This document shows positions 9,547 through 34,271 of a stretch of DNA of 64,000 nucleotides, piece by piece (position 1 is the first letter of the stretch; every line of letters begins with the position of its first letter). Origin of the DNA: Halorubrum cibi (GTDB lineage: Archaea; Halobacteriota; Halobacteria; Halobacteriales; Haloferacaceae); assembly GCF_900182635.1 (NCBI RefSeq), contig NZ_FXTD01000012.1, positions 62,001 to 126,000 on the forward strand. The letters are read 5' to 3'. The position numbers and the translations under genes were made by a program. A model generated the notes under the pieces. That model did not search any database and was not told the DNA's origin. It was given only the letters and a program-made list of their open reading frames with translations.

Positions 9547-10443
9547 CTATTCCCACCACCGACCGCGCTCGGGGAACATCACGGTGCTCCACCCAGTGAC
9601 GGCTAGTGAGACGCGTCCTTCGTACCAGTTCCGTGCCGCTCCGTGAATTCGAACGCGCTCGCCTTCTTGGATCCACGGAGCATTTGAGGCCTCCCAGATC
9701 GTTACCCGTGTTTTGCCACTGTCGTCCGCGATCAGCCCAACTTGAGCGATGCTCGGATGGGAGGGATCCCACAATGTCTCGACCTGACCCTCAACACTCA
9801 CCTCTTTGCGATTGACGTCCTCAAGCTTCCCGATGGGAACCACATGTCCCGGCGCTGTCTGTAACTCCTCGAACACCCCCACGACCGCGCTCATCAGGTC
9901 TTTCCCACCGACGACGGCTTCACCCAGCCGCCGACCAATCGCCGCTCGCGACCAGCCATCCAACTTCTCTGCCAGCCGCATCGACTGTGTGTTCACCGCC
10001 GCCAACTGCTCTTGCGTGAGTTCTACACGAGGATCGTCTCTCTCTGGGTCCATCCGCGGGTCCACGCTTGCCGCCCGCTTCTGGAACTTCACACGCCGTT
10101 CAGCACTCCGCTTCGCCGCGACATTTCGCGTCCGCTTTGCGCGCCCCTCCTGCTGACTGAGCTCCGCCTGAGCACTGATGCGTTCCAGTTCAGCCTCCCG
10201 CGCTCGAATGCGCTCTTCCTGTTCGAGGGTCTTTCCGAACATGTGATCCGGGCCTTCCTCGACGCGCGCGTCTGGGTGGTTAGAATCGACTTTCGCCTGT
10301 ACCTCCATCTGTACCGTTGCCCGGAACTCCGGCGTCTCATCGACGACCTCGAAGCCATCTTCATCGACTTCCGCTTCGTCCGCGTTTTCGAATCCTTGTT
10401 CATCGACCGAAACTACTTGACTGGTAACGTTCTTACTTGACAT
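9547..10443 (-). CDS. OB-fold single-strand DNA-binding (RPA/SSB-like) protein
   Basis: 298 residues. The C-terminal 100 residues are an OB fold: LEDVNRKEVSVEGQVETLWD, IAQVGLIADDSGKTRVTIWE, IQEGERVRIHGAARNWYEGR. This is the RPA-like pattern. The N-terminal half is acidic, then a charged helical region (GKTLEQEERIRAREAELERI). This architecture fits the haloarchaeal plasmid SSB-like proteins. It may protect single strands during plasmid replication or transfer. An 8-bp perfect stem (CCGCGATG / CATCGCGG) lies 38 bp upstream of the ATG. Confidence 0.82.
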   Translation of the reverse strand: MSSKNVTSQVVSVDEQGFENADEAEVDEDGFEVVDETPEFRATVQMEVQAKVDSNHPDARVEEGPDHMFGKTLEQEERIRAREAELERISAQAELSQQEGRAKRTRNVAAKRSAERRVKFQKRAASVDPRMDPERDDPRVELTQEQLAAVNTQSMRLAEKLDGWSRAAIGRRLGEAVVGGKDLMSAVVGVFEELQTAPGHVVPIGKLEDVNRKEVSVEGQVETLWDPSHPSIAQVGLIADDSGKTRVTIWEASNAPWIQEGERVRIHGAARNWYEGRVSLAVTGWSTVMFPERGRWWE

Positions 10444-15584: not shown

Positions 15585-16427
15585 CGTAGTTCAGTGGGCG
15601 CTCACTGCGCCCCTCACCCCTCTTGGGGGTGAGAAAATCCACCGCGAATCGCGTCACCATTCAATGAGTGTCTTCTGATATGTTTGCTATAGACATTCGT
15701 CGTTTGCTGGCCCCTCGGCCAGAGAGAGCCAGCGGCGTTTGTACCAGTGTACCCTAGCCTTCCTTTGGAATATTTTGGAGGTGCAAAGGGTATCAAAACA
15801 GCCTCAGATTCAACAATAGGTCCGTCGGGCTGTTTTTAGGCGGTGGAACTGTCCTCGACGAACTTCAAACTCGGCTTTCCGGGGTAATTGTGCTTGACGA
15901 GGTGTTGAGGGCCTCGAATTCGAAGGAATCAGTATCACATATTCGCCGCACTCGCCGCCGACGAATCTCAGCAGCTAACGATGGTTAGCTTCGACTCGTG
16001 GAAAATTCACCCCTTATCGGTCGAATATTGGGGATGTAAGCTCTAAAAAGTGCGTGACGGAGATTCTTAACTCCCCGGACAACCTCTCCGATAGAAATAT
16101 CAAAACGATGGTGGTTCTCTCATAGGCGCCGAAAAAAGAATCGCCGGATTAGCTAGTTCAAGACAACGGCCAGTTCTCCTTGAGGTTCATTTTTGGTTAG
16201 TCTGAGAAGCTCGCGTTCAGGACCGGCGAAGAGTGAATTGCAGGTTTTACTCGATCCGCTTCTATCTCGGTCATTGGATTTCTGGATCTGTATCTAGAGT
16301 ATGATAATAGTAGGAGGCAGATCTGTCTCTCGGAGTCTATCTCCTCGAACTATACCCACAAGTAAGCCAGCATTTGGATAATGTATGTGAATAATAACTA
16401 TTGGCACACGTGTTCTATCTACTGGTC
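15585..16427. other. 843-bp gene-poor, AT-richer region
   Basis: Apart from hairpin copy 6 at its left edge I find no intact gene. A 7-bp dyad AGCTAAC-GATG-GTTAGCT lies at 15973-15990. On the minus strand a short open frame reads GPQHLVKHNYPGKPSLKFVE then DSSTA and a stop (about 15838-15920). It looks protein-like and could be the 3' remnant of a decayed gene, but is closed upstream by a stop. Composition is lower in GC than the flanks, suggesting decayed or transferred DNA. Confidence 0.45.
15609..15638 (-). promoter_or_regulatory. shared hairpin promoter element, copy 6
   Basis: Minus strand: TTTTCTCACCCCCAAGAGGG, then GTGAGGGGCGC. A perfect 8-bp stem CTCACCCC / GGGGTGAG with a 5-nt loop, the best stem of the set. 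The A that is bulged in copies 1-3 is paired here with T. It ends about 25 nt before the ATG. Confidence 0.75.
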
Positions 16428-17282
16428 ATGGGCGACCAGTTTCCACCGGTTACTCGTCGAGAGCTAATTGCGATCACCGGTGGATCCGCCCTGGCTGGAT
16501 GCTCAATAATGAATCCTGGAACGCGACATCCTCAACGAGACACCACACAACGGGATGACCAACAGGCGGAGACCGTTCGGGCTTTCGTCGGGTCGTATCA
16601 CTGGGGATACTTCATTTTGGACGAGGACGGCGCGGAAATAGACCAACTAACGCTTTCACCTGGCGGCGAACTACGGCTCACCCTCTTCAACGTCGAAGCA
16701 GATGCCGCGATCGACGCACTCCCGCAAGCAGTTCGTACGAACATCCCAAGCCCTGAGGAACGAGCTCAGCGCAACGAACAGGCCATCCCCGTTCCCCAGG
16801 GGACGACCCTCGAAACCCTACACGACGCGGCCGAAGCCGCATATCCAGACCACAGTCTCGTCCTCCTAGGCGACGAGTATATGTGGAGCAGGCCTGGTGG
16901 CCCGGGACAGGGACAGGGGAGTGGTGTTCCAGTCGGTCCGTGGGGAGGTCACCACGGGCCCCACGGTGGTCCATATGGCCCAGGAGGCGGCCCATACGGC
17001 CCAGGACAGGGGCCCGGTAGTCCATATGGCCCCGGAATGGGCGAATATGGCCCCGGGATGATGCCAGGGTACGGTCCTGGAATGGGCGGGTATGGCTGGG
17101 GAAGCGGGTACGGCGGAACGCTCGCACCACCGGTATACCTCTGGCATCACTCGACGGTGCCAAGCGAACTTGGATTCGTCGTAAACACCACCGGGTCGTT
17201 CGGATTCGTGTGTACGGTCTACTGCGGCTACGGTCATCCGTACATGGCCGAACAGAGTCGCGTCGTCGTAACTGAAAACTGA
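16428..17282 (+). CDS. Tat lipoprotein with CuA-type copper site and Gly-Pro-Tyr-rich insert
   Basis: 284 residues. TRRELIAITGGSALAGC is a Tat motif with a lipobox, so the mature protein should be lipid-anchored outside the membrane. The C-terminus carries Cys262-x3-Cys266-x3-His270-x2-Met273 (CTVYCGYGHPYM), plus an upstream His (YLWHHST, His240-241). This is the ligand set of the CuA centre in cytochrome oxidase subunit II and nitrous oxide reductase. Between the two halves of the fold sits about 80 residues of GPYGPG/GPGMG repeats. It could transfer electrons or bind copper. The ATG is chosen over an upstream TTG. It is monocistronic. Confidence 0.82.
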   Translation: MGDQFPPVTRRELIAITGGSALAGCSIMNPGTRHPQRDTTQRDDQQAETVRAFVGSYHWGYFILDEDGAEIDQLTLSPGGELRLTLFNVEADAAIDALPQAVRTNIPSPEERAQRNEQAIPVPQGTTLETLHDAAEAAYPDHSLVLLGDEYMWSRPGGPGQGQGSGVPVGPWGGHHGPHGGPYGPGGGPYGPGQGPGSPYGPGMGEYGPGMMPGYGPGMGGYGWGSGYGGTLAPPVYLWHHSTVPSELGFVVNTTGSFGFVCTVYCGYGHPYMAEQSRVVVTEN

Positions 17283-17433: not shown

Positions 17434-18945
17434 CTAGAATTCCTCTCCCGTAGAACCGTCTTCATCCAGTTGGTCGTACATTTCGTCTGGGAATGGGAGA
17501 CTTCCCCAGATGGAGTATTGACACTGCTCCTGCCCGATGCAGTACCGCTGTATATCGTCGTTGTCGCAGTTCATCGGAAGCGGGGTGTCGCCACCAATCG
17601 TATTCGAGAATTCGTAGCGAATCTGGTAGTCGGTGACCTGTTCGTCGTACCACGGCCATCGTGAGAAGATGTCCTTGAGATCCGCGACAATTGTCTCGAG
17701 GTCACTGTCTTGGTACTGGGGCAGCCACATCACCATCCGGGCGAAGTTGTACAGGTCCTTTCGGACCGGCTTCTTCTCGTGGAGGCGCTCGGCCATGTTC
17801 GCCATACAGGGGAGCTCGAACAGATCTTCGATCGACTCGACGTCAAGAGGCTGGACGCCACGCGAAGACTCCTGAATCCGATAGTGGTTCGTATTTCCGT
17901 GCTGTCGGATCGTGAGATTCCGATGGTCGCGCTGGGATGCAAGGAGATTCCCAAGACTCCGAGGACTCGAGATACGATTACACACGTCTCGCTTCCAGTC
18001 CGCTTCTGGGTCGTACGCCTCTACTGCTTCAAACAGCTCCTTCGCCGAGTGGAACTCCCCCAGTGAGACGACCTCATCTGGAACGTCTCGAATCGCGTCC
18101 CGGAGCACACGGATGGTCCGCTCACCGGGGTTCCAATCTCGCCAGATTCGTTCGTGGTGTCCCGTCTCGATGAAGCGATCGATGCGCTTTGTGATGCCCG
18201 ACTCATTCGTGCTCAGCCACGTCAGCTGGTCTTCTGAGAGATTCTCCTCCTGGACTCGCAGGAGCTTCTTGAACGCACGTCTGGCGTACTCACGATACTT
18301 CGTGTCGAAATCACCGACCGGTACGTAGAGGCAGTTGTCCTTGATGCGAGTGAGCAGTTCTCCGGTCTCTCCTGGCTCGGTGTCGGCGTGAACGAGACAG
18401 TCCCTCGATGCTGCGGCCATCGGGATTTCGAGATACAACCCTTCACCAAACTCGGGCATCTCCTTGATCCCTGTACAAACGCGACCAGGGTGCGGACCAT
18501 CCTCTCCGGGCCCTTTCGCGTATAGCACTTCTGCGATATCCTGTTGAAGACTCCCGTCACCGAATTCTCGAAGAAGGGACGCGAGGTTATTGACATAGAG
18601 CTCGCGAATATCGTAGAGAACCTGTACCTTTCGCGGCGGAGCGTGCTCGAACTTCGGGTGTACTTTGACGCAGATCGCACTCAACGTCGCGAGGACGGCG
18701 AGCGTTCCCGGTTCGTCGACGAACGGCTCCTCAGCGGCATTGGCCCTGACGTCTTCTTTGAACGCCGCTGTCCCGAACCGCTCGAGGTCGTTTAACAGAT
18801 CGTCTGGTTGGTCTTCGCCGTCGATGATGTATCGATTGTAGCCTCGCGTGAACAGCTGGTTGATTCGGGTCGTGCCGTATTCGAGTGGGAGCGTCGCAAC
18901 GCGATAGGCGGTACGCTCGTCCTCGACAGGCGTCGACTGACTCAT
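17434..18945 (-). CDS. primase large-subunit-like / primase-associated protein
   Basis: 503 residues. It starts inside the stop of the small primase gene (4-nt overlap). The C-terminal third has well-spaced cysteines (ELPCMANMAERLH, MNCDNDDIQRYCIG, QEQCQYSIWGSLPFP) suggestive of the 4Fe-4S C-terminal domain of archaeal PriL. The N-terminus is helical. It would help the catalytic subunit bind template and initiate primers. PriL assignment is inferred from cysteines and pairing; the sequence is diverged from chromosomal PriL. Confidence 0.72.
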   Translation of the reverse strand: MSQSTPVEDERTAYRVATLPLEYGTTRINQLFTRGYNRYIIDGEDQPDDLLNDLERFGTAAFKEDVRANAAEEPFVDEPGTLAVLATLSAICVKVHPKFEHAPPRKVQVLYDIRELYVNNLASLLREFGDGSLQQDIAEVLYAKGPGEDGPHPGRVCTGIKEMPEFGEGLYLEIPMAAASRDCLVHADTEPGETGELLTRIKDNCLYVPVGDFDTKYREYARRAFKKLLRVQEENLSEDQLTWLSTNESGITKRIDRFIETGHHERIWRDWNPGERTIRVLRDAIRDVPDEVVSLGEFHSAKELFEAVEAYDPEADWKRDVCNRISSPRSLGNLLASQRDHRNLTIRQHGNTNHYRIQESSRGVQPLDVESIEDLFELPCMANMAERLHEKKPVRKDLYNFARMVMWLPQYQDSDLETIVADLKDIFSRWPWYDEQVTDYQIRYEFSNTIGGDTPLPMNCDNDDIQRYCIGQEQCQYSIWGSLPFPDEMYDQLDEDGSTGEEF

Positions 18946-19826
18946 GACTGGAGCACCTCCGGTGTCGCAGACTGAACGTCGAAGGTCGGGCTCTCAATCG
19001 GCATGACGATGCTACAGACGTCAGCGTGCAACGAGTAGGGGAGCCGGGCGACTCGACGACGGTCGGCGGTTACCACTGGGTCGATAGGGATCTCGTAGGT
19101 GTCTTGTAGAAGGTCGTTCAGCACTTCTCGACTCTTGGCGTCGTACCGATGGGATGGATCACTGTCGAGGAGGTAGACGTGGACGCCTTGGCCGCTGTAC
19201 ACCACCATCGTCTCCTCGGCGTTGAAGTCGTCCTCGAAGATATCTCGCACCTCGAAGCCGTACTCGATGGCCCGTTCGATATCCTCAAAGGCATACGGAT
19301 ACCCCTTGGGAGCGGCGTCGAGGATTCCTGTGGCGTTGAGGAGCGTATCATCGTCCCAGTCGTCGACGTCCTCCGAGACCGTATCCGCTGCTCGGTTCCT
19401 GGCGATATCCTTCGCATCGATGTCGACGAGGAGGACCCAGGGTCGCTCCCAGTGATCCAGCGCGTAATAGACTGCATCAGGACACGGGTCTGGTTTGTCA
19501 AGCAGGTCTGGATCTGCGAGCGCGAAGTTACTCCGACCGAGTGGATCATTCCGTGCTGGATGCTGGATGAATTCGATGACGTCGTCGAACTCCTGAAACG
19601 CTGCAGTGGTCCGCTCTCCGGAGGTGTTCGTCTGCCACGTATCTCGCCGAATAAAGTCCTTGTCTGGGACTCCGTCTTTCCGTACTGGGTGGGGTTCCCG
19701 AAACGCGAGTGCGTACTGTTTCGGTCCCATCGCTGTGATGAACGACGGGAGCTCGTCACGGTATGAGGGAAACTCCTCGGCGTAGTACCTGTAGATCTCT
19801 TCACGAGTCGCTTGTCGCCAATTCAT
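18942..19826 (-). CDS. archaeo-eukaryotic-type DNA primase small subunit (plasmid type)
   Basis: 294 residues. Catalytic DxD in VLLVDIDAKD (Asp135, Asp137), the SGxGxH motif YSGQGVHVYLLD, and a third motif IDPVVTADRRRVARLPYSLH with basic residues for nucleotide binding. These are the AEP/PriS hallmarks. It synthesises primers for plasmid replication or for complementary-strand synthesis after transfer. It overlaps both neighbours by 4 nt and is thus coupled to the transfer ATPase upstream and the large-subunit-like gene downstream. Confidence 0.87.
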   Translation of the reverse strand: MNWRQATREEIYRYYAEEFPSYRDELPSFITAMGPKQYALAFREPHPVRKDGVPDKDFIRRDTWQTNTSGERTTAAFQEFDDVIEFIQHPARNDPLGRSNFALADPDLLDKPDPCPDAVYYALDHWERPWVLLVDIDAKDIARNRAADTVSEDVDDWDDDTLLNATGILDAAPKGYPYAFEDIERAIEYGFEVRDIFEDDFNAEETMVVYSGQGVHVYLLDSDPSHRYDAKSREVLNDLLQDTYEIPIDPVVTADRRRVARLPYSLHADVCSIVMPIESPTFDVQSATPEVLQS

Positions 19827-22800
19827 TTGTTGAACTCTTGGTCGAGTTTGTTGAAGCTCCGAATCGTCGTCAGCCCAGCTGCGTCGAACGATTCAACGGC
19901 CGATCGAATATCCGAGAACGACCGGGCCGCACGCCCGCTCACACTGCTCTCAATTCGATTAGCCTCAGAAAGACAGTCCAGCACTTCGACGGCTGTCTCG
20001 CGTCTGTTAAACGCCCAGACAGCGTTCGCATCCACTGCACTCTGCTTGTCGTAGTCGTTGACCGGCGCGTGTTTGTTGTTACTCGCGAGTTCAGCTTCAC
20101 CGACCCACACGAGTTCTCCGTCAGCATCAAGACCGGCAACATCGAACACCGTCTCCTCATCGTACTCATAGTAGGATTCGACCTGTGCGACGTCTTCGTG
20201 GGAGTCTAACCACAGTTCGAGCAGCTTCACACCAACCTTGTGCGGCGTCTTTTCCCCGATATCTCCCTGACCAGGACCGACCTTGAGTTTCTGGCCGAGC
20301 AGTTCTCGCCCTGCCGGGAGTACGGTGTAGTACTTCCGACCACACGCTCGTCCTTCCTCCAACAGGTCTTGATCGACGAGCCGTTGTACGTTGAGGTTGT
20401 CAAAGTCGTTCTTGAACGCACTCATTGAATCCAAGAGTCCATGATTCGGTGCATCACCATTCATCACGTCAAGGATGCGGGTCAGGAAGCGGATGTCGTC
20501 GTAAGTAAGCCCGAGCCGTCGAAGCTCGTCATCCGGGACGGTTACACCACCAGCCTGTACTGGTAACGATCCGTTCTCGTCGACAGCTGTCTCCTCCTCT
20601 TCACCGACTAGCTCTTCTGGCTCAGTTGACTCAGGATCCCCAAAGAGCGGGTTGGTGGTATTCTTGTCTCTCCGTTCGTTTCTTTCGTTCCGTTCGTTTC
20701 CTTCGTTCTCTTCGTCGGCTGCTGAACCACTGGTTGCCTGTCCGATGAACGACGACTGTGTCGTGTCCACAGGACTAGTCGATTCTGTGGATGTCGACCG
20801 TTCACCCTTCGGTCTACTTCCCCATCCCTCGGTGTCTCCGGCCTCTGATTCGTTAGTGGCCTCAGCAAGCCCATACTGGGTCTGTGTCCGCTCGGACAGT
20901 CGGGGGAGGGCCACGGTCTCGAAGTGGTCCTCCTGTTCGATAGAAAGCGGCTCGTCGCTCTCTGGATGACCAGCTGCTATCGGGAGCGGCTTCACAGAGA
21001 ACGGGGCTGGCCCCGTCTCCCCGAATGACGGGCTGGGGAGTTGTGCAATCCATTCCCCGCTGGGGAGCGTGTTGATCCGATTTCGCAGGTCAGTCGGACT
21101 CAAGTCTTCGTGGGCCAGTGACTCGGCGAGGTCGCGCTCGATGGAGATGTTCCCGATGAGCTTCGTCTTGATGTTGTTGAGGACCTCGTTGTAGGCGCGC
21201 TCGCTTCGATTCCTGACTTGCTCGGGAAACTGCATCACTAGTCCCATGCTCAGGCCAAAGGACCGACCTTGGGGAAGCAACTGCTCGGAAACGAGTTTCG
21301 TTGAGGCGACGGGAGCCGCCTCCTCAATGATGAGGTTGGTAAGCTTCTCGTAGTCTGTCTTCCCGTCACGTCGACGCACCTGTACCGCGTCCCAGAGGTT
21401 ACTCAACAGGAGAAGTGTGATTGCTCGCTGTGCCTCCGGACGGAGATCACCCAGGTCGAACAGGATCGTGGCATCTTCGTCGAGGAACTCGCGGAAGTCG
21501 AATCGGTTGTCGACGTATTCGCCATCATCGCCCTGTTCCGGAACGTGACTGAAGATACGACGCAGGTGTGCGTCCTCTCTGAGTTTGTCGAGACGGTTTC
21601 CGACGGCGTCCATCGATACCTGGAATCGACGGTCATCCTTCTCGAAGTGGCGCGTCAGCGACTCCTCGACATTTTGGTTCTCAGCAGCGACCGGAGGGAC
21701 TGTCCGCTCGCGTTGCATCTGGAGTGCAGCCGCAAAGAGATCATCGAGGCCGAAGGCGTCACTACCGTATTCCTCGTCGAAGAGCGCCTTGATGAGGTAG
21801 CTGAGGATCTCGTTCGCGACAAACGCTTGTCCGTACTGTTCGCGGCCCATGACCATCCGCATGATGTCGTGGAAGTGGTCGACCTTGTCCTGAATCGCGT
21901 CTTCACGATTTTGTCCGGCCTTGAGCGCAGGCCGGATGTCGAAGAAGGAGAACGCAGGGACCGTCTCCGGGACGCGGAACTGGTAGACGTCGTCCACCCC
22001 GTTGAAGCGCTCGTAGTGGCAGCGAAGGTAATTCGCGCACATACCGTCGCCTTTCGGATCGACGATCACGACGGGTCCGCCAGTCGTCTCCCGGAGAGAC
22101 AGCGCGTCGTTGATGATTGCCTTCGATTTTCCGCCGCCGGTCGAGGCGAACCGGCCGTAGTGCGTCGTCAGGAGATTCGGTGGAATCCGAATCGGGTCCG
22201 GTTGGGGAGATCCGTTCTCATCGAGTGCATACCCGATCGCCATTCCCTCTTGGAACTGTTGAACTAGATCTGGATTGGGCCACGGAAGCGGGTTCCGGCT
22301 TTGCTGTTCAGCGCGTGTCCCGCGTGTTCCCTCAACTGTGAGTTGCTCGGAGGATGGGACGAGCACAAAGTTCGCGAGTTCCGTCCCACAGAGGACGAAA
22401 TCCGGTCGGGTCTTGCCTCGACCGCTCGTCATCTCTCGGTCAAGCAACTGCTGGAGAGCTGTCTGAGCGTTCTTCGCCTTCGTCTTTTCTCGGAAGCCGC
22501 CAGCACGGAGTCGGTCCCCTTCGACTTCGTAATAGGGGCCGTCGATTGGGTCGAACACGGGACGAAGCGCGTTCATCTGGGCCGCGAGGTCGTCGCGGCC
22601 TTCATCCCCTGTTGGAACGCCGACTGCTCTAATGTTGGCAGTGAACGACCGCTTGGGGTTCTTCGCGTCGATATACTCGATGCGCTTGGCGACTGATTCG
22701 CTGAGCTGTTTCTCGTCGCGATTGCCCCGCCGATCTTCGACCTCCAGGAAGGAGCCAACAATCTCCTGGAAGAAGGTGTCCCGCCCGTCGACGAGATCCT

Positions 22801-23668
22801 CCTTTCTGATCTCGGCGTCGGACTGCCAGCTTGTCCGTCGCTGAAACACAACCTGAAACGCTACTGGTGACGCCGCCTCCATCAGGTGGTCGACGAGTGA
22901 CGCAAGAGTCGCACCGGGCTGGTCGATAGCAGCCAACCCGTCGTCTTCGTCCTCGGAGGCGAAGGGCGTCAACGACGTCATCCAGTCTTTCTTTCGGGTG
23001 GCTGAACCAGACCAGCGTACGCCGACTGGCGAGACGGCGTCGACGGTGGGCCGAGCGAGTATCGTTCCCTCGGCCGTCTCGGTCGGCTTTTCGAGTATCG
23101 TCAGTGGCCCCTCGTCCGGAACTGCATTTGGAGATCTAAGCTCAAGCGCCGTCTCCCCAATCTCGACGAAGTGGCCATGGGACGAATCGACTGTGGCACC
23201 ACCATCTGCAAGGGAGGATGCTTCGGTCGTTGGTGTCTGGTCTTGGTCACGCTCCTCGCTGTCAAGTTCGTGCTGCTCGTCGGTACTAAATTCGTACTGT
23301 AGATGCCCTGCTTCGTAGTGTTTAACGAACTCTGCTGGTGTGAATTCGACTGGCTGAATGAGCCGTGAAGCGACGTCGACGTCGACGCGTTCGATGTCGA
23401 ATGTCTCGGGATAGATCGAGCGAAGGCGTTTTTCGAGTGTGTCGAGATGCTCGTCGGCGCCGTAGAAGAACTCAACAGGGTCGTCCGCTCCCTCAGATAG
23501 TGCGAGAAACTCGAACCGAAGCGGTGTCTTACTGTGGAGTGGGTTCAGCTTCTGCACGAGTCCAGTTGACTCCGCCGTCGTCAGTTTGTGCAGGCTTTCG
23601 AGGACTCGAGGGATTCCCTCGGGATCCAGGCCTTCTGATGTTGGCGTGACTCGGAGATACTCACGCAT
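19823..23668 (-). CDS. VirD4/TraG-like DNA-transfer ATPase with C-terminal wHTH and nuclease-like domain
   Basis: 1281 residues from MREYLRVTPTSEGL, overlapping the VirB4-like stop by 8 nt. The ATPase core has Walker A STGGGKSKAI (about residue 510) and Walker B GPVVIVDPKGDG, plus VMQFPEQV. After an acidic linker with NERNERNERRDKN repeats, the C-terminus has a wHTH (YDDIRFLTRILDVMNGD ... YYTVLPAGRELLG). It ends in VFDVAGLDADGELVWVGEAE, a D...ExE pattern like replication-relaxation (Replic_Relax) nuclease folds. It should couple DNA to the transfer channel. The tail might supply relaxase-like cleavage, since no separate relaxase is seen. Confidence 0.85.
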   Translation of the reverse strand: MREYLRVTPTSEGLDPEGIPRVLESLHKLTTAESTGLVQKLNPLHSKTPLRFEFLALSEGADDPVEFFYGADEHLDTLEKRLRSIYPETFDIERVDVDVASRLIQPVEFTPAEFVKHYEAGHLQYEFSTDEQHELDSEERDQDQTPTTEASSLADGGATVDSSHGHFVEIGETALELRSPNAVPDEGPLTILEKPTETAEGTILARPTVDAVSPVGVRWSGSATRKKDWMTSLTPFASEDEDDGLAAIDQPGATLASLVDHLMEAASPVAFQVVFQRRTSWQSDAEIRKEDLVDGRDTFFQEIVGSFLEVEDRRGNRDEKQLSESVAKRIEYIDAKNPKRSFTANIRAVGVPTGDEGRDDLAAQMNALRPVFDPIDGPYYEVEGDRLRAGGFREKTKAKNAQTALQQLLDREMTSGRGKTRPDFVLCGTELANFVLVPSSEQLTVEGTRGTRAEQQSRNPLPWPNPDLVQQFQEGMAIGYALDENGSPQPDPIRIPPNLLTTHYGRFASTGGGKSKAIINDALSLRETTGGPVVIVDPKGDGMCANYLRCHYERFNGVDDVYQFRVPETVPAFSFFDIRPALKAGQNREDAIQDKVDHFHDIMRMVMGREQYGQAFVANEILSYLIKALFDEEYGSDAFGLDDLFAAALQMQRERTVPPVAAENQNVEESLTRHFEKDDRRFQVSMDAVGNRLDKLREDAHLRRIFSHVPEQGDDGEYVDNRFDFREFLDEDATILFDLGDLRPEAQRAITLLLLSNLWDAVQVRRRDGKTDYEKLTNLIIEEAAPVASTKLVSEQLLPQGRSFGLSMGLVMQFPEQVRNRSERAYNEVLNNIKTKLIGNISIERDLAESLAHEDLSPTDLRNRINTLPSGEWIAQLPSPSFGETGPAPFSVKPLPIAAGHPESDEPLSIEQEDHFETVALPRLSERTQTQYGLAEATNESEAGDTEGWGSRPKGERSTSTESTSPVDTTQSSFIGQATSGSAADEENEGNERNERNERRDKNTTNPLFGDPESTEPEELVGEEEETAVDENGSLPVQAGGVTVPDDELRRLGLTYDDIRFLTRILDVMNGDAPNHGLLDSMSAFKNDFDNLNVQRLVDQDLLEEGRACGRKYYTVLPAGRELLGQKLKVGPGQGDIGEKTPHKVGVKLLELWLDSHEDVAQVESYYEYDEETVFDVAGLDADGELVWVGEAELASNNKHAPVNDYDKQSAVDANAVWAFNRRETAVEVLDCLSEANRIESSVSGRAARSFSDIRSAVESFDAAGLTTIRSFNKLDQEFNK

Positions 23669-25877
23669 CGTCTTCCCCCTCCATTGAACCGCCGTCAGGC
23701 TTGGCGGAGATGGATTCCGCGTCACTCGACTGTCCGTCAGTCGTTTGCTCTTCCAGCTTCTCTCGGAACTCCTGCACGTCCGTATCAACTGCACCTTCAC
23801 CCGCGCCGGGGAGCGAAGAACGGCGCTGCTCGGTTGGATCGAAGTCGATGACCTGCTTCTCCTTGGGCATCGCCTCAACCTTGATGCCGCGCCATTCTCC
23901 GTCGACGCCGACGAGCGCCTCGGAGAAGCCAGCGTCCTCGTTCCCGGGGACCGCGTCCTGCACGTAGCGCATCTGGGCGTAATTCAGCCCGAACTCGTCG
24001 GCCCATTGGTCGTCCATCCCGTCCAGGCGATGGAACTGCTTGACGGCACACTGGTCGAGGATGGCTTCGGACTCGGCGTGCTCGAAGAACTCGTCGACGG
24101 TCTGGGTGACGAGCCGGATCGAGAGATCGTGGTGGCGGTGATGTCGGAACACCGTCTCTAAGAATGCCAGACTCGCGGCGTCCTGCATTATGTAGCGCGC
24201 CTCGTCGATGACGAACACGACCTCCTTGTCCGTCTCTTTCGCCCGCTCGTACACGAGCGAGATGAGCAACTGCATCGTCAGCGCCGTACTGCTATCGACG
24301 CTACCTTCCTGCTGGGCGAGATCGAGATAGATGACCTTCTCGTTACGGATATCGAACTCTGAGGACTTCCCGAGATTAGCGTGGCGACCCTCTCCCTCGA
24401 AGGGCCGAAGCTGGTCCAGCAGCCACGTCGCGTCCTCGCGAATCTTCCCAGCCTCCTCGTCGGAACGAACGACGAACTCCTCGGGGTCGTCGACCATGTC
24501 CTCGAAGACGTCCATCATGTCCCGGATGGTCGGGCTGGGGTTGCCGTGCGTCGAGATGTCGTCGGTGATGTCGTTGCGCTTGTAGGCGCGCTTGAGGCCG
24601 AGTTCGAGCGTCGTCCGACGATCACCGAGCGAGATACCGCGCAGTGCGAAGAAGTTCGTCAGGAAGCTCATTGCGTCGTCGAGCTTCTCGTTGAACGGGC
24701 TCGCGTCCTCACCCATCGCCCGCTGGACGTGGTCGGGTGTCTGGCGAATCTCCAGGGGATTCAGACCGAGCGTCCCACCGACGGTGATGCGTTTTGCACC
24801 GAGTGCTTCGGAGACGCCCGCCCAGTTGTTGAGCGGTTCGAGAATAATGCCGATGCGATCCTTGCTCTGCTCGATCGAGCGAATGAAGTTCTGTTTCGAG
24901 CCGAACGACTTCCCAGACCCAGTATCGCCAACGGTGAACATCGCATACCCGTTGTCACGGGCAAACGGGTCGATGACGACGGGGCTCTGGTTGTCCTTGT
25001 GGATGCCGAACTCGACCCCGCCCTCTTCGAGAATAGTCGCGTTATGCGGTGACGAGAGGAGTGCACCAACTGCTCCACCGAGGGCAATGGATTCGCGGCT
25101 AAACACGTTGTCTCCAATGGGGGCAGCTGACTGGAGCGCAAGGTCTTGCCGGCAGATCGCGGTCTTCGGTGTGAGGTTCGCCGGGTCGTCGCGGAGAGCG
25201 CTCTTGACCTTCTGGACTGAGTCCCTGAGGTCGTCCTTGTTGTTGGCGCGAACCGTGATGAACATCCCCTGGTCGAAAACGTTCGCACCACTCTCGACGG
25301 CCTTGTACGTCGCAGCGGCTTCGTTCGCTCGCTCCTGAAGGTACGCACTTCGAACGCTCTGTTCCAGATCGGCGTCAACTTGGAGGTCGTCAGCGATGTC
25401 CTGCAGTTCGTCCCGCGCTCGCTGCTGGTTTTTTGGCGTAATGTGCGCTGTGAGGTCGAATTCGACGTCGGTCAGCTCGAAGAGGTCGCTCAGATAGCCG
25501 TCGTTCGGGTAGTCGGCATAATCCGTGATGTAGAGCGTCGTCGTCCACTGCTCGCCAACGCGTGCGGCTCGTGTCTCCCACTCGATGGCTGCTGGCGCAG
25601 TCACCGTCTTGTGAGACTCGGAGATGTCGTCAAGGAGTTGGCCTTCTACATGACCCTCCTCGAGCGTCTCCTCGTCGAGGACATCCGAGAAGTCGACTTC
25701 GGGTTCGTCATCGGCAGTGTGACGGTCCCAGAGGAGTTTACCGATGACTCCGAGGGCCACAACCAACAGGAGATAAATCGCCGCACCTTCGGGTGACGTG
25801 GGGTTCAGTAGCCACTCAGTGGGCTGGGCGAGAGGCCCGCCGCTCGCTTGGAGGACGACGTTATACATCGGTCTCAT
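23661..25877 (-). CDS. VirB4-like conjugation ATPase
   Basis: 738 residues (735 if the inner ATG at MYNVVLQ is used; both overlap the upstream stop). A membrane segment lies near residue 35 (GAAIYLLLVVALGVIGKLLW). Walker A is FTVGDTGSGKSFGSK (about 317-324). Walker B is KEVVFVIDEARYIMQD, and RLVTQTVDEFF follows as in VirB4/TrbE. Residues 100-290 resemble the VirB4 N-terminal domain. It powers pilus assembly or substrate passage in a type IV-like secretion system. Some of the VirB4 N-terminal part may be carried by the preceding gene. Confidence 0.88.
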   Translation of the reverse strand: MRPMYNVVLQASGGPLAQPTEWLLNPTSPEGAAIYLLLVVALGVIGKLLWDRHTADDEPEVDFSDVLDEETLEEGHVEGQLLDDISESHKTVTAPAAIEWETRAARVGEQWTTTLYITDYADYPNDGYLSDLFELTDVEFDLTAHITPKNQQRARDELQDIADDLQVDADLEQSVRSAYLQERANEAAATYKAVESGANVFDQGMFITVRANNKDDLRDSVQKVKSALRDDPANLTPKTAICRQDLALQSAAPIGDNVFSRESIALGGAVGALLSSPHNATILEEGGVEFGIHKDNQSPVVIDPFARDNGYAMFTVGDTGSGKSFGSKQNFIRSIEQSKDRIGIILEPLNNWAGVSEALGAKRITVGGTLGLNPLEIRQTPDHVQRAMGEDASPFNEKLDDAMSFLTNFFALRGISLGDRRTTLELGLKRAYKRNDITDDISTHGNPSPTIRDMMDVFEDMVDDPEEFVVRSDEEAGKIREDATWLLDQLRPFEGEGRHANLGKSSEFDIRNEKVIYLDLAQQEGSVDSSTALTMQLLISLVYERAKETDKEVVFVIDEARYIMQDAASLAFLETVFRHHRHHDLSIRLVTQTVDEFFEHAESEAILDQCAVKQFHRLDGMDDQWADEFGLNYAQMRYVQDAVPGNEDAGFSEALVGVDGEWRGIKVEAMPKEKQVIDFDPTEQRRSSLPGAGEGAVDTDVQEFREKLEEQTTDGQSSDAESISAKPDGGSMEGEDDA

Positions 25878-26982
25878 CCTCCCGGCGCGAGTGGCCGATG
25901 ATCGGTTGCTCGCGAACGACGCAGTCTGCGTCGTCGTAGTCGTGCTCTCGTCCGTTCCAGAAGTCCATGTTCAGAACGAACAGTTCGACCGTACTGAGTC
26001 GACGAGCAGACCAGCCGGACGCCTGCTGGATGAACTCGGCGCGAACGTCGTTGACGCGGCTGTCGAGCTTCTCGAACATTTGGGCACGGCGTTCGACATC
26101 GGTGAGATCCTCGCGTCGCGTCACAAAGAGATTGAACAGGAACCCGATGATGGGAAACTTGGTCAGTTTCTCGGCAGGCGTCCCCTCGTCTCGGAAGCGG
26201 TCGTAGACTTCGAGCGGCGTGACCTCGACCCCAAGGTAGTATCGCATCTGTTGGATGCCACGGTCACGCATCTCTCTGGGGCGTGTTTCTTGATATTCTT
26301 CGAGAAGTCCCCGGAAGATCGGATTTGCCGTGACGTCTTCGTCGGTAAGCCGTTCCTCGATCGTCTGGGTGATTTGCTCGACCGGGAATGAACGGGTTGT
26401 CGCGTGGAATTTGAGCTTCGAGTCGAGTTCCTTGTTAGCAAAGTCTTCGCCCGCGTTCTGGAGCTGGGCCCAGTCGTTGGACATCGCGAAGTCCATGTTC
26501 CCCGGGTTGATCTCGATGAAGGCCTCCATCGTGCCGTCCTCCCGTTGGATCGCCCCAGCACCGGGCCACGCCCGCTTGATGTTCGTAAGGTCTTGCGTTC
26601 GCTCGTCCGGTTTGAACGGCGTGTAGTTTGCGAACCCACCTTCGTTTCGTTCGGTCTCGTTCGTGGTACTGTCGGCTGCTTCTGGGGCACTGAAGGTGAC
26701 TCGCGGGCGCTTCGCGTATCGATAGACGTCCTTCGTCCACGTCCACGCGTTCAGGTGGTCGGGAGAGACGTAGATGACGGCGACACCAAACCCGAGTCCG
26801 CCAGCCACGAACGGGAGGGCAAGCGATTCAACGCCAGTGAGACTCGCGATGAAGAGCCCGATAATCGGGAAGGCGATGAGTACGCCGACGTCCCCCTCCT
26901 CGATGTTGAGGTAAGGGATACGACTCTCCTCGCCAAACTGGTTCATGATACGCCGTGCTGCCGCGTCTGGATCTGTAGACAT
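25861..26982 (-). CDS. conjugation-system inner-membrane protein (VirB3/PrgI plus cytosolic domain)
   Basis: 373 residues. Two adjacent hydrophobic segments at about 32-72 (GVLIAFPIIGLFIASLTGVE, LALPFVAGGLGFGVAVIYVS) are followed by a basic loop (YAKRPRVTF) and a long cytosolic domain. This is the layout of PrgI/VirB3-type subunits fused to a VirB4-N-like domain. It overlaps the start of VirB4 and abuts the VirB6-like stop (26982). Probably the scaffold docking the VirB4 ATPase to the channel. Confidence 0.7.
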   Translation of the reverse strand: MSTDPDAAARRIMNQFGEESRIPYLNIEEGDVGVLIAFPIIGLFIASLTGVESLALPFVAGGLGFGVAVIYVSPDHLNAWTWTKDVYRYAKRPRVTFSAPEAADSTTNETERNEGGFANYTPFKPDERTQDLTNIKRAWPGAGAIQREDGTMEAFIEINPGNMDFAMSNDWAQLQNAGEDFANKELDSKLKFHATTRSFPVEQITQTIEERLTDEDVTANPIFRGLLEEYQETRPREMRDRGIQQMRYYLGVEVTPLEVYDRFRDEGTPAEKLTKFPIIGFLFNLFVTRREDLTDVERRAQMFEKLDSRVNDVRAEFIQQASGWSARRLSTVELFVLNMDFWNGREHDYDDADCVVREQPIIGHSRREDETDV

Positions 26983-28100
26983 TAGTGAATACCTCGATCG
27001 TACTCCATTCCGTACTTGTCACTCGCTGCGTCTGCGGTGGCCCCACCGGGATCATTCTCGGTTCGACGGTACGATGGAGATCCGTCCTCAGTTCCGTGGT
27101 CGCCTCGAGCTGCTGCTTTCTGTGCGATGGCTTGGCCAGCTGCTGCTTTCGGTCCCCACCGTGCTGCTGTCGTCGCGACACCCGCACCGCCAACGTAAGC
27201 GCCAGCCGCGACACCGCCGATGAGAGCTGCTCCTTTCGTCGCACCTCCGACAACCCTGGCTGTCAGCGGAGTCGCGTACTTGAACGTCTTCCAAGTGATA
27301 TAGAGCGCAACCAGTGGGAGTGAGACAGCGACGAAGAACTTGAGGAATGCAGTCTGTGGTGTGAGGGTCCCCCCGCCGTATAGCAGATCATATCCTTTGA
27401 ACACTATCGCGGCTGGAAGGGGCAGGACAGCAAGGGGGACAAACCGCCTACAGAACCCCATCGAAATGTCAGACACAACAGGGATATTCCCATATCCGAT
27501 AGCAATCGCAATCGGCATCCCGTAGAGATATACGTAGAGGAGGACCTCGCGGATGTAAAACAGAGCGTTCAATGCCCACATCGAGATACCTCCAATTAGC
27601 GCAAATAACAGTGATAACCCCGGGTTGGTCAGTGTTACACCGAGGAACCCCAACATAGCATTTCGAAGCGAAGCCATACCGGGCATCAGAGCAATTGAGA
27701 AACCATCGACAACGTAGAGCGAAAGGACACCGAGCCAATACCAGACGATTATCAGAAACGCACCAACCCACGCGGTTTTCTTTGTCTTCCTCGCTTCATA
27801 TGTGCTACCGATATTGAATATTCGAATGGTGTGACGCCCTTGTACACTCATTACGAGTAGAAGCAACGCGATGAGCATTATTTCGCCACCGACGAGTGTA
27901 TCTTGAATCGCTGACCAGGGTACATTCGTCGGCTCCCCGAAAACGAATGGTCCATTTGTCTGAGGGGTAGGAGTTCCGAACATCTCCTCAGTGAGAGTAT
28001 TGTATCCTGTTGTTAGACCATCCATGAAGAGGCCAGCAACCCAGTCAACGACATCTTTGAACCCCTCCAAGACAACGTCAATGAGATCAACCATGGTCAA
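26982..28100 (-). CDS. polytopic VirB6/TrbL-like membrane protein
   Basis: 372 residues with about seven hydrophobic segments (GEIMLIALLLLVMSV, GAFLIIVWYWLGVLSLYVV, SLLFALIGGISMWALNALFY, FFVAVSLPLVALYITWKTF and others). A Gly/Ala-rich hydrophilic C-tail follows (TARVVGGATKGAALIGGVAA ...). VirB6/TrbL channel proteins have this topology. It overlaps both neighbours by a few bases in the transfer operon. No sequence motif is diagnostic, so the call rests on topology and context. Confidence 0.72.
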   Translation of the reverse strand: MTMVDLIDVVLEGFKDVVDWVAGLFMDGLTTGYNTLTEEMFGTPTPQTNGPFVFGEPTNVPWSAIQDTLVGGEIMLIALLLLVMSVQGRHTIRIFNIGSTYEARKTKKTAWVGAFLIIVWYWLGVLSLYVVDGFSIALMPGMASLRNAMLGFLGVTLTNPGLSLLFALIGGISMWALNALFYIREVLLYVYLYGMPIAIAIGYGNIPVVSDISMGFCRRFVPLAVLPLPAAIVFKGYDLLYGGGTLTPQTAFLKFFVAVSLPLVALYITWKTFKYATPLTARVVGGATKGAALIGGVAAGAYVGGAGVATTAARWGPKAAAGQAIAQKAAARGDHGTEDGSPSYRRTENDPGGATADAASDKYGMEYDRGIH

Positions 28101-28936
28101 GCCCCACTGATCGTGATTTCGCAGTTTTGCATCTCGTCTGTGCCGGTGTATTCTACGTTGTACGCCTTCGTGGCTTGCTGACCTGTAACTCGAGTCTCTA
28201 GTATAATGGTGAACTGCCCACTATTACCGTCAGTCGAACAGCCCATTCCCTCGTCCCCGATTTCTGAACCAAACGGGAACGAGTCGCTGAAGAGGTCGGC
28301 CTTCTCACCTGCCGAAACTACGACGCTCTCCTTCTCGTAGATTCCACTTCCACGGGGATCTGCGACAGGGTTAGGAACGTCTCCAGTAAATCGCATCTCG
28401 ACGACCGCATCCGGTCCACTTCCGGTGTTCTGAACGGTAACAAATGCCTCTCCGTTCTTTTTCGCATCAGTTGGGCTCTCCCCGTAGACCTCATCCCACG
28501 GCTTGTCAGGATTATTCCGGTAGAGACCAACGTCCTGAATCTGAATCTCCGGTACGATATCCGTCGTACTCTCTGTGACCGTCTCTTCGCCTTTCAGTGC
28601 GACTACGCGATATTCTCCAGGCTCGTATGCGGTTCCAATCTCAAACGAGACTTGTTGGGCCCCTGCGGCCACGTCACGGGTTCCGAAGAGTTCTCCGTTC
28701 GGCTGGATGAGGTTGACTTGGTCGATGTCAGCGTCAGAGGAGAGTTCGACCACGAGCGTGGTTCCTTCGACAGTGACCCGTTGGAGTGGGCCTTGCCCAT
28801 CTACTGGGCCAATTCCGTCATCGGGAGTGCCTGAGTCCTCATTGCCATTCAGACAACCTGTAACGCTTACAAGCGCCGCACCTGCGGTTGTTCGGAGGAC
28901 GTTTCGTCTGCTGATGATTGGGTTGTTTCGTATCAT
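28097..28936 (-). CDS. Tat lipoprotein of the transfer operon
   Basis: 279 residues. SRRNVLRTTAGAALVSVTGC is a Tat signal plus lipobox (Cys28 lipid anchor). The mature part is beta-rich with two Ig-like stretches (TVEGTTLVVELSSDADIDQV, GEAFVTVQNTGSGPDAVVEM), ending in a Cys pair (GMGCSTDG ... MQNCEITISG) that could form a disulfide. Exposed on the outside of the cell, it may contribute to the transfer pore or to mating-partner contact. Coupled by 4-nt overlaps on both sides. Confidence 0.78.
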   Translation of the reverse strand: MIRNNPIISRRNVLRTTAGAALVSVTGCLNGNEDSGTPDDGIGPVDGQGPLQRVTVEGTTLVVELSSDADIDQVNLIQPNGELFGTRDVAAGAQQVSFEIGTAYEPGEYRVVALKGEETVTESTTDIVPEIQIQDVGLYRNNPDKPWDEVYGESPTDAKKNGEAFVTVQNTGSGPDAVVEMRFTGDVPNPVADPRGSGIYEKESVVVSAGEKADLFSDSFPFGSEIGDEGMGCSTDGNSGQFTIILETRVTGQQATKAYNVEYTGTDEMQNCEITISGA

Positions 28937-30678
28937 TGATCTCGTTGGAAGAGGTCCTCAGGGCCGAGCATCCGGAGGAGACGATGTCCGGCGTAGAACA
29001 TCACGAAGAACGGAATAAACTGCCAGAAAATCTCGAATAGGAACGCGAACCAGCCGTTGATGGTTCCAAGTGGGTGCCAACGGACAGTCGCTGTATCACT
29101 CACATAGGCTGGGTCATGTCCAAGCCACGAGCCTGGGTGATATCGGGCTGTGTAGATTCCCGGATCGTCGACGGTTACAATGGCTACCCCGGACGCATTG
29201 GTCTCGACCTGCTGGCCGGCGATGGTGATGTATCCGTTGCGGGTGGTTCCCCCAATCGGATACCAGCGACTGCTGTCGTCGAGGATGATCGGTGCGCCAG
29301 TTTCGTTGTCACGGAGTTCGATTCGGAGCGTGGCCTGTGACTGATTCTGTTGCAGAACCTCCGCCGTAAGGTTACTACGACGGAGCTGTCGTTCAGAACC
29401 CGCGACAGGCTCGACGATCGACGCGTTGACTCCTCGAACGATACCTGCAACGTGGAGGGTGTCCCGATCGATAGCCTCGGCTCGAACGGCGACACCGTAC
29501 GTCGTCGTGTAGGACTGATTTACGACCTCGATGTTGACGTTCTTACCGATGGTCCCCGCCGGAGAGGGTCGGTCAGTCCCCCACGTGTCGACAATCTCCG
29601 GGCCATCCCGAACAGGTTCTGCACGCGGTCCAATCCGGGAGGGATACGCGTGGACGAACACGGGGATCGCGTCGGACTCTACTTCGGTACTAGCGGTTCG
29701 GTTGGACCGCACGAGCGCGTCCCAGCTGGTGTCCCGGGCAGTGTAGAATCGCCAGACACCACGAACTCTCGTGTCACCGTCCTCAGTAAGCGTGTACCCC
29801 TGCCAGGGACGGGACTGGAAGATAGCAACGCCGGAATCCCCGTTCGGATATTCGGCGTAATAGGGGTACGCGGAGAGGTCGTAGACCTCAACGTCAATTG
29901 AGTCCGAGACGTTTCGCGTCTCTTCTCGATAGACGACATCAACATTGGTTCCGTTGACCGCGTCGGTCCGGATCGTCTTCTTCAGCCGGACATGGATCTC
30001 TGCTTCGAGGGTGAGGGTTGTACTCCAGTCGTCGTCGATCTGGTAGTCGATAGCTGGCGTGTGCGATCCATCGCTCCTCGCGATGGTTTCCCCGTCGTTT
30101 TGTAACCGAACTTCCTCGATCTCGTGGTTCGTGAGCGACCACTGGATAGTCCTGTTCCCCGAAGAGCTCCCGTTTGGGATACGAACGCGATAATCGACGA
30201 ACCCACGCATCGTGCCATTCGGGGCGATGTACAGTGGTTTTTCACCGGATTCGAGGTGTCCCCGGGTCGACGGCTGAACCGCGAACACTGTCGCGTGAGC
30301 GTCCTCGATGAAGACACCATCTTCGAGGGATGCGTGAGGTGGATGGACGGACGTATCCGACCCACCAGCTTCGAGATCCGCAAAATCGTTTCGAGTCCAC
30401 GTCGCAGCAGTCTCGGGCGGGCGCTTGAACGTAATATCTGTCCCGTTCGCAAGCTGGTGAATCGACGTCCGCTCGTCACCGTAGCGCTGGCGGTACTCCT
30501 CCTGACTGATGTAGTTGTCCGCATCGTGAGACCAGAGCGTCGCTGACTCGTTCTCAGTGAGTCCGTTGTCTTCCGTACCCGGCCGCGGCGGAGTCGCCGA
30601 GACGATACCCGTGACTAGGCTAGTCACGCAGAGGGCTGCGATGAGTACGGTTAGTTTGCGTTGTTGTAGGGGTCTCAC
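28933..30678 (-). CDS. large secreted, C-terminally membrane-anchored protein of the transfer operon
   Basis: 581 residues with a GTG start. A classical signal peptide (KLTVLIAALCVTSLVTGIVSA) is followed by a large beta-rich extracellular region. The region holds several NxS/T sites and an Ig/carboxypeptidase-regulatory-like repeat (GAPIILDDSSRWYPIGGTTR ... GIYTARYHPGSWLGH). A C-terminal membrane segment (GWFAFLFEIFWQFIPFFVMF) precedes a short basic tail. It probably forms the outer part of the transfer machinery or an adhesin. No family recognised. Confidence 0.75.
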   Translation of the reverse strand: MRPLQQRKLTVLIAALCVTSLVTGIVSATPPRPGTEDNGLTENESATLWSHDADNYISQEEYRQRYGDERTSIHQLANGTDITFKRPPETAATWTRNDFADLEAGGSDTSVHPPHASLEDGVFIEDAHATVFAVQPSTRGHLESGEKPLYIAPNGTMRGFVDYRVRIPNGSSSGNRTIQWSLTNHEIEEVRLQNDGETIARSDGSHTPAIDYQIDDDWSTTLTLEAEIHVRLKKTIRTDAVNGTNVDVVYREETRNVSDSIDVEVYDLSAYPYYAEYPNGDSGVAIFQSRPWQGYTLTEDGDTRVRGVWRFYTARDTSWDALVRSNRTASTEVESDAIPVFVHAYPSRIGPRAEPVRDGPEIVDTWGTDRPSPAGTIGKNVNIEVVNQSYTTTYGVAVRAEAIDRDTLHVAGIVRGVNASIVEPVAGSERQLRRSNLTAEVLQQNQSQATLRIELRDNETGAPIILDDSSRWYPIGGTTRNGYITIAGQQVETNASGVAIVTVDDPGIYTARYHPGSWLGHDPAYVSDTATVRWHPLGTINGWFAFLFEIFWQFIPFFVMFYAGHRLLRMLGPEDLFQRDQ

Positions 30679-30699
30679 GATGAGTGGGAAGTGAATGGC

Positions 30700-31119
30700 T
30701 TACCAGGGGACCAGATCAACACACTGCGCCAGTGGAAGGCCCATCATCGATCCCGCGACGGTGTACAGTGGGCCGAGGATAACGAGAACCACTGTGGACT
30801 TCATTGCCGAGCGCTTGTGCTGCTTGAGTCCCTTCTTCTGGTCTGGATTGAGCGTGAACATCTCGATGAGAGAGTCAGCTTGCCAGACGACAGCGAGACC
30901 AACAATGCCCAGCGCGGTAGTTAGTTGAAAGAAGCCCTCAATCATTCCGGGGAGATTGTCAGCGCTGCATACCGCGCTCTGTGACGTTTGTTGAGCGAGC
31001 GCTGGTTCAACTGCGATAAGCGAAAGGGCTGCGATGGTGAAGAGGAGCTTCAGTCCAACAGTACTCCGTGCAGTGGTTTTCGGCTTTTCTTGTGGGGAGT
31101 CGGTATCTGATCCTTGCAT
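30700..31119 (-). CDS. VirB2/TrbC-like pilin candidate
   Basis: 139 residues. A signal-like segment (GLKLLFTIAALSLIAVEPALAQQ) ends in an AxA cleavage site. Two hydrophobic helices follow (FFQLTTALGIVGLAVVWQAD, VVLVILGPLYTVAGSMMGLP) separated by a short basic loop (KKGLKQHKRSAMK). This is the VirB2 pilin plan. Two Cys (CSADN, QCVDLVPW) could form a disulfide. It is the first gene of the transfer operon, where a pilin is often placed. Confidence 0.72.
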   Translation of the reverse strand: MQGSDTDSPQEKPKTTARSTVGLKLLFTIAALSLIAVEPALAQQTSQSAVCSADNLPGMIEGFFQLTTALGIVGLAVVWQADSLIEMFTLNPDQKKGLKQHKRSAMKSTVVLVILGPLYTVAGSMMGLPLAQCVDLVPW

Positions 31120-31340: not shown

Positions 31341-31607
31341 ATGTATCGGGAAGTTAATTGGGCAGTACCTGCCGACCCATACATTCTCGAAGAACTAGGC
31401 GAGTACGATGGCTGGCACACGGCAAAGAACCTCGAGATCAATACGGACTTCAGTCGCCAATGGATCTCTCAGCGTTGTCCAGTATTTGTTGATCATGAAC
31501 TCGCTGAGCGCCACGAAGAGGAGCCTGCATACCGCCTTACAGAGTTCGGTGAGCAGATCCTCAACGGTGAAGCAGAGTACGAAGAGCTCAAAGAAACAGA
31601 GAGCTGA
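31341..31607 (+). CDS. phiH1-repressor-like winged-helix regulator
   Basis: 88 residues. The sequence ADPYILEELGEYDGWHTAKN, INTDFSRQWISQRCPVFVDH, then a wing (EEEPAYRLTEFGEQIL) fits the haloarchaeal phage phiH1 repressor family. That family uses a winged helix to silence lytic or mobile genes. Transcribed away from the transfer operon, it is the natural candidate to control that operon and itself. Confidence 0.83.
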   Translation: MYREVNWAVPADPYILEELGEYDGWHTAKNLEINTDFSRQWISQRCPVFVDHELAERHEEEPAYRLTEFGEQILNGEAEYEELKETES

Positions 31608-31985: not shown

Positions 31986-32180
31986 TCCATCGCGAATTTT
32001 TCGTGATTATAATATAAAGGTTCCAACTCTGGGTTTGTCATTCTGAGTGTCGGTGAGTAACACAACAGGAAGATACGGAAAATCAATGCGCCAGTGTTGA
32101 CCGTGGCGATAACCGGACCCATCTCAGGTTTACGTCCACAGCTGTCGACAAGACGAATCATTCCGTGGCAAATTATAAAC

Positions 32181-32194
32181 TTAGTCCCGTCTAA
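32181..32194. promoter_or_regulatory. TTAG-N6-CTAA operator at the first DtxR gene
   Basis: TTAGTCCCGTCTAA, 10 bp upstream of the DtxR ATG and just after a TATA-like AATTATAAAC. The same half-sites with 6-bp spacing occur at the multicopper oxidase promoter and at the second DtxR gene, each followed by TTT. Short spaced palindromes over the start region fit DtxR/MntR/SirR repression when metal is present. Confidence 0.7.
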
Positions 32195-32204
32195 TTTCGC
32201 TCTA

Positions 32205-34270: not shown

Positions 34271-34271
34271 C

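Follow-up and report, generated by a model that had tools for sequence, protein, structure and literature searches.

A probable conjugation-like transfer system of haloarchaeal plasmids with a six-gene channel core and an exchangeable pump-primase module

Contig NZ_FXTD01000012.1 of Halorubrum cibi (126,508 bp, in a genome of 3.18 Mb) is most likely a plasmid, carrying Orc1, PolB and metal-resistance cargo. We analysed its positions 62001-126000, a stretch of 64,000 nucleotides called the window here, in which nine open reading frames (ORFs) run on the (-) strand from 31119 to 17434. They probably encode a conjugation-like transfer system of haloarchaeal plasmids, composed of a six-gene channel core and a DNA-processing module of a pump ATPase and a primase (Table 1). 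This reading builds on the computed families of VirB4, TrbL, PriS and PriL, on a conserved gene order, and on the co-inheritance and repeated exchange of the pump's motor and tail together with the primase.

An earlier note on this DNA had described the nine genes as one fixed operon on one strand, nearly all overlapping or abutting. They do adjoin here, with a 21-nt gap between pilin candidate and secreted protein and overlaps of 4 nt (secreted protein/lipoprotein), 4 nt (lipoprotein/VirB6), 1 nt (VirB6/373-aa protein), 8 nt (373-aa protein/VirB4), 8 nt (VirB4/pump), 4 nt (pump/PriS) and 4 nt (PriS/PriL). However, the conserved unit is a six-gene core plus an exchangeable three-gene module. 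Most of the 40 loci compared share the core order of pilin, secreted protein, lipoprotein, VirB6, 373-aa protein and VirB4, with identities as low as ~50%, and it is kept wherever the upstream region is intact, while the module downstream differs. The same gene order, sought as the note had proposed, recurs far beyond chance, in nearly all of these loci (at identities down to 50-70%) and in named genomes.

The module comes in two types. Type A is the window-type pump with PriS and PriL. Type B pairs a ~410-aa PrimPol with a pump of ~1440-1530 aa whose tail is of another kind; the PrimPol matches the NrS-1 HBD domain (E 1e-31) and the solved phage NrS-1 primases (E 4.6e-42). The type A PriS-PriL and the type B NrS-1-type PrimPol are unrelated enzymes filling the same slot.

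The linkage was surveyed in 80 named loci picked by VirB4 alone, 71 of them with at least 5.5 kb downstream. An archaeo-eukaryotic primase (AEP) is present in 62 of the 71, being type A in 26, PrimPol with a pump in 34 and PrimPol without a pump in 2, and both primases are together in none. Knowing the tail of the ATPase is enough to tell the primase type in all 26 type A and all 33 type B cases (59/59). One of the 34 PrimPol-with-pump loci, L252, has its pump on the opposite strand and so behaves like the pumpless form. A Fisher test (p 2.5e-17) is not taken as evidence because the loci are related, and a tree-based count was taken in its place. The VirB4 tree (FastTree, 126 loci) has 12 changes of primase type, and well-supported branches force at least nine of them.

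Of 391 Halobacteria genomes, 263 contain a VirB4 relative. In the same 391 genomes, 88 of the 90 long PriL-like hits are within 4 kb of a type A tail; of the other two, one lies close to the end of a contig and one contains an in-frame stop. The order VirB4-pump-PriS-PriL holds even in very divergent systems (VirB4 ~200 bits).

Incomplete forms also exist. The core stands without an adjacent pump or primase at loci L045-L049, L054, L062, L071, L224, L225, L228-L230, L233, L241 and L253; many such loci are on chromosome-sized contigs and may be remnants or channels with a pump in trans. At L060, L064 and L066-L070, which are mostly chromosomal, VirB4 is followed by PrimPol within ~100 nt and no pump is nearby.

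The pump is itself a mosaic. Between L055 and the type B locus L057, VirB4 is 97% identical and pump residues 1-450 are 83-93% identical, but the rest of the pump falls to 44-52% and ~22%. Between L055 and the window, the pump N-terminus is mostly 42-49% identical and the part from ~450 on 84-97%; PriS is 95% and PriL 94% identical, yet VirB4 just 70%. The break is also sharp in the pairs L202/L196 and L199/L189, less steep in other A/B pairs and absent from the same-type pump pairs compared. The junction is located just before the Walker A motif at residue ~511.

Hence, the ~450 N-terminal pump residues follow the channel, while the motor, the C-terminus and the primase move together. Haloferax denitrificans ATCC 35960 has both module types on different contigs (2 and 6), so the exchange partners meet in one cell. 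The 4-nt overlaps, from which the note had read single-stranded DNA transfer with primer synthesis in the recipient, are real but prove little alone, and for coupling the co-exchange is better evidence. The natural recombination serves as a domain-swap experiment, indicating that the pump N-terminus is channel-specific and that motor, tail and primase are one functional unit.

The small primase subunit matches PriS in NCBIfam (E 5e-9) and PDB (E 8e-6). Its motifs DxD, SGxGxH and ADRRRxxRLP (here SGQGVH and ADRRRVARLP) are invariant, as are the catalytic residues D135, D137, H216 and D255 across the alignment, which bears out its first label as a primase small-like subunit. For the 503-aa protein, a PDB sequence search with its profile gave nothing useful, so its identity was approached by the structure route.

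The AlphaFold2 model of the 503-aa protein (pLDDT 82) has PriL chains in all top 17 rows of VIA-align, the best being 1zt2_B of S. solfataricus (Z 8.4 over 184 residues) and others coming from human, yeast and Pyrococcus, although Foldseek alone is weak. The model consists of a PriL N-domain fold, an inserted winged helix (272-362) and a C-terminal domain. C380, C460, C469 and C475 are invariant in 17 sequences and align with the iron-sulfur (Fe-S) motifs LFPPCM and PPxC of the host haloarchaeal PriL; this hhalign comparison gave a probability of 2.5 with a shallow alignment and 67 (E 5e-5) with divergent members. We conclude that the 'primase-associated protein' is a divergent PriL with a putative Fe-S domain, in line with its earlier large-like label, and that a complete archaeal-type primase is thus encoded on the plasmid. 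The NCBIfam family NF038197 appears to be divergent PriL and could be renamed.

The pump ATPase matches NCBIfam HerA, and its CedD match is weak. It had been called VirD4-like, a name that holds for its position and superfamily but not as a proven family: the protein resembles HerA/DUF87, hydropathy gives it no transmembrane segment, and its scores are those of a HerA/FtsK-superfamily pump, to which a tail is added. As judged from annotated relatives, its start is most likely 23668 rather than the mechanical ORF start 23878, and that of VirB4 is most likely 25868 rather than 25877.

The pump tail is predicted to combine a MarR-like winged helix with a PD-(D/E)xK-like domain (AlphaFold2 pLDDT 88, pTM 0.84; structure matches of Z 6.4-8.0 overall). 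Its second half has an alpha-beta-beta-beta-alpha-beta core, with helices 125-139 and 184-194 and strands 146-154, 157-164, 170-177 and 199-204 in the tail-model numbering. This half matches Can2, YaeQ, VC1899, AF1548, PaqCI and the BspD6I small subunit at Z 6.4-7.4, a range that may arise by chance. The conserved motif is H1143, D1176, E1191-x-E1193 and D1205-Y-x-K1208 in the pump numbering; in the tail numbering these are D160, E175 and E177, and most pump fusions add K192 from the helix that follows. Since ExE stands for ExK, tail catalysis is put forward as a hypothesis.

A PDB sequence search with the ATPase-tail profile gave nothing useful, and Replic_Relax (PF13814), tried as the tail's family, matched none of 26 members. 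Other haloarchaeal pumps share the conserved tail, as do stand-alone proteins of ~270-310 aa. The latter include L139:3519-4334, L140:3493-4422, L141:3892-4815, L142:4933-5808 and L143:3953-4888, four of which are without the DYxK lysine. Compared by profile, the type A and type B tails reach only E 0.087, which leaves it unproved that they are homologous, though D and ExE align.

In the channel core, VirB4 and TrbL/VirB6 are clear, and the initial view of a type IV secretion system (T4SS)-related transfer operon is upheld by them. VirB4 matches NCBIfam VirB4 families at E 1e-38 to 3e-11 and the VirB4 structure 4ag5 in PDB at E 4.4e-9, and the VirB6-like protein has the strong TrbL_3 match listed in Table 1. 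The lipoprotein, of the twin-arginine (Tat) type as first called, keeps RR and lipobox in 18 of 18 homologues checked, with a variable body of 31-87% identity. The 581-aa anchored protein belongs to no known family in Pfam and PDB searches, which leaves the former 'Ig-like' label without sequence support.

Two core members are less sharply defined. The pilin candidate has a signal with an AxAQ site, two further membrane segments, a basic loop and two invariant Cys, a VirB2/TrbC-like topology; its match to Pfam TrbC is E 0.0094, under the cut-off, and among 23 homologues the family is matched at E<=1 by 14, with 0.0042 as the best value. The 373-aa protein begins with membrane segments, and its soluble part is strongly conserved. 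Its PrgI/VirB3-like label agrees with the position and is unproved at the family level; PrgI and TcpE were the only T4SS families matched, by one member each at E ~0.25 (32 homologues). Compared with the VirB4 N-domain as a possible relative, the 373-aa protein has no relation to it, and a PDB search gave no relative either.

On the simplest mechanistic reading, the ~450 N-terminal residues would likely dock the pump on the channel. The motor and the winged-helix/PD-(D/E)xK-like tail may select the plasmid and possibly nick it. DNA would be transferred, presumably single-stranded, and PriS-PriL would start the complementary strand on it in the donor, the recipient or both. Motor, DNA-binding/nuclease-like tail and primase would all work on one DNA and would therefore have to match each other. 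Priming of transferred single strands, as with RP4 TraC or ColIb Sog, fits because the dedicated primase is swapped for an unrelated one, not lost.

A genome search gave no PF03432 or PF01076 relaxase match, other MOB families not being searched, and PF13814 gave a sub-cut-off match alone, on another contig. Related plasmids that were inspected are typed non-mobilizable with a mating-pair formation (MPF) call. With no standard relaxase found and the relatives so typed, the pump tail is the best available nicking candidate. We tentatively extend this to relaxase-free conjugation, a proposal that we hold less likely than not, in which the coupling ATPase has its own nicking domain and a dedicated primase, and the cassette is swapped at a fixed junction within the ATPase.

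Several results weigh against a conjugative system of this make. The pilin match to TrbC is sub-threshold, and no VirB8 homologue was recognised. Hydropathy shows no transmembrane segment in the pump, so the VirD4 membrane anchor is absent. Foldseek matches of the tail are weak (best E 6e-3), and its site departs from the canonical D...(D/E)xK in having ExE for ExK. Nine of the 71 loci have the core without an adjacent pump or primase, and with Orc1-like and PolB-like frames on the same contig the primase could have a role in replication.

That role is the main rival, kept alive by these two frames. PriS-PriL could serve replication as the plasmid encodes Orc1 and PolB, sharing a promoter with the transfer genes and working in a replisome with Orc1, PolB and the OB-fold RPA-like protein of the same plasmid. 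We hold it unlikely. The primase adjoins the transfer pump in 88 of 90 cases and has been exchanged together with the pump's motor and tail on at least nine occasions, orc1/polB are ~35 kb off on this contig, and several chromosomal loci have VirB4 directly followed by PrimPol. A T4SS-like machine outside conjugation, for protein export, Ced-like DNA import or HerA-pump defence with nuclease and primase, is distinctly unlikely. No relaxase was found, the pump has its weak CedD similarity, and proteobacterial systems without a recognised relaxase are argued to be mostly protein exporters, with archaea the likely exception (PMC3158045). However, the plasmid location, the broad horizontal spread with VirB4 95-97% identical between genera, the linked DNA primase and its replacement rather than loss all weigh against such a machine.

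The earlier note had named a virus or vesicle-forming element as what would overturn its view. Plasmids of the pR1SE type are also reported to have a VirB4/HerA-like packaging ATPase (PMC10818511), but relatives sought in viral genomes were not found: VirB4 has no match in IMG/VR and weak, bacterial matches only in phage records, and PriL-like and TrbL have none in phage records. The clear TrbL/VirB6 family also misfits a packaging-only module. We thus reject virus origin and consider a virus or a vesicle-forming element such as pR1SE highly improbable.

The conjugation-like system favoured here resembles the MPF-FATA conjugative T4SS of firmicutes, actinobacteria, tenericutes and archaea (PMC3158045) in its VirB4, TrbL/VirB6-type, pilin-like and PrgI/TcpE-position proteins and pump ATPase. 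It differs in having no recognised relaxase or VirB8, a HerA-like pump without a membrane anchor and a dedicated archaeal-type primase, and its surface parts (the anchored protein and the Tat lipoprotein) suit an S-layer cell. Thermococcus pT33-3 and Sulfolobus pNOB8-type plasmids (PMC12857230) are likewise archaeal with VirB4 and VirD4/HerA-like ATPases and no recognised relaxase, whereas the six-gene core and the primase module are found here. The crenarchaeal Ced/Ted systems also transfer DNA by T4SS-related means, and HerA-NurA is proposed to make single-stranded DNA in them (PMC9905601). They are host-encoded importers, while the present system is plasmid-borne with the nuclease-like part fused to the pump.

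Archaeal VirB4 homologues and the lack of relaxases are already published (PMC3158045, PMC9905601, PMC12857230), and that lack raises the question of how the strand is cut and re-primed in archaeal conjugation. Fusexin-carrying haloarchaeal integrated elements have VirB4, HerA and TraG/VirD4 genes, and the six-gene core and primase linkage were not found described in the parts of that source available to us (PMC9259645). Neither the core, nor the PriL identity of NF038197, nor the exchangeable pump-primase module was found in a literature search largely without subscription journals. For haloarchaeal transfer, one particular domain is now singled out as a nicking candidate and one particular enzyme as a primase candidate. 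If true, the cassette would supply the strand-initiation enzyme that haloarchaeal conjugation has been missing and would suggest a way in which DNA could pass between archaea with no relaxase of the bacterial kind. The question is testable as several carriers are cultured Haloferax strains.

In bacteria, the conjugative primases RP4 TraC and ColIb Sog are tied to transfer functions. The RSF1010 RepB'/MobA fusion is a further primase so tied (PMC5862659). The partners are non-homologous, being here PriS-PriL or NrS-1 PrimPol with a HerA-type pump.

Table 1. Features of the transfer gene cluster and of its plasmid surroundings (window positions unless marked as contig)
Feature	Position	Strand	Basis
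VirB2/TrbC-like pilin candidate, 139 aa	30700..31119	-	hydropathy, alignment, weak TrbC
Secreted protein with C-terminal membrane anchor, 581 aa	28933..30678	-	hydropathy (segments 7-30 and 543-563), conserved position
Tat lipoprotein, 279 aa	28097..28936	-	RR motif and lipobox
TrbL/VirB6-like polytopic membrane protein, 372 aa	26982..28100	-	Pfam PF19590 TrbL_3, E 1.4e-136
373-aa protein at the VirB3/PrgI/TcpE position directly upstream of VirB4	25861..26982	-	hydropathy
VirB4 ATPase, 735 aa	23661..25868	-	NCBIfam, PDB
HerA/VirD4-type pump ATPase at the coupling-protein position, 1281 aa	19823..23668	-	Pfam DUF87/HerA above cut-off
Pump C-terminal region, residues 1017-1281	19826..20620	-	alignment, AlphaFold2, structure comparison
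PriS-like catalytic primase subunit, 294 aa	18942..19826	-	NCBIfam PriS, PDB PriS, alignment
Divergent PriL, 503 aa	17434..18945	-	NCBIfam NF038197 'primase-associated protein', 847 bits
Divergent 88-aa winged-helix protein upstream of the operon	31341..31607	+	PF25213 weak
OB-fold RPA/SSB-like protein	9547..10443	-	replication factor A models, E 4e-14
Orc1/Cdc6-like reading frame	contig 42540-43814, outside the window		recognised by eye
PolB-like reading frame	contig 39184-41352, outside the window		recognised by eye

An overlap of the contig ends was looked for and not found, so circularity is without support. With the PolB-like and Orc1/Cdc6-like frames, a large part of the replication genes is present on the plasmid itself. 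The OB-fold protein is 77% identical in the same order in a Halorussus salilacus plasmid (L001) and is a possible backbone partner outside the operon; a TFB transcription factor is at 7856-8818, and both gene types are in the same order in L001. The 88-aa winged-helix gene stays divergent in L001, L002, L035, L037 and L038 at 72-97% and may encode a repressor or regulator of the transfer genes.

Metal-resistance cargo is dense at 32094-43172 and 43671-59097. It includes a multicopper oxidase, a plastocyanin-like protein, ZIP- and CDF-family transporters and DtxR/MntR-type regulators, as well as several heavy-metal P-type ATPases and copper proteins. By eye only, adjoining genes at 12769-13659 resemble a PIN-type toxin and a UPF0175/ribbon-helix-helix-type antitoxin. 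A Gly/Tyr/Pro-rich lipoprotein at 16401-17282, also recognised by eye only, has a CuA-like CxxxC motif at its end and is a possible copper protein.

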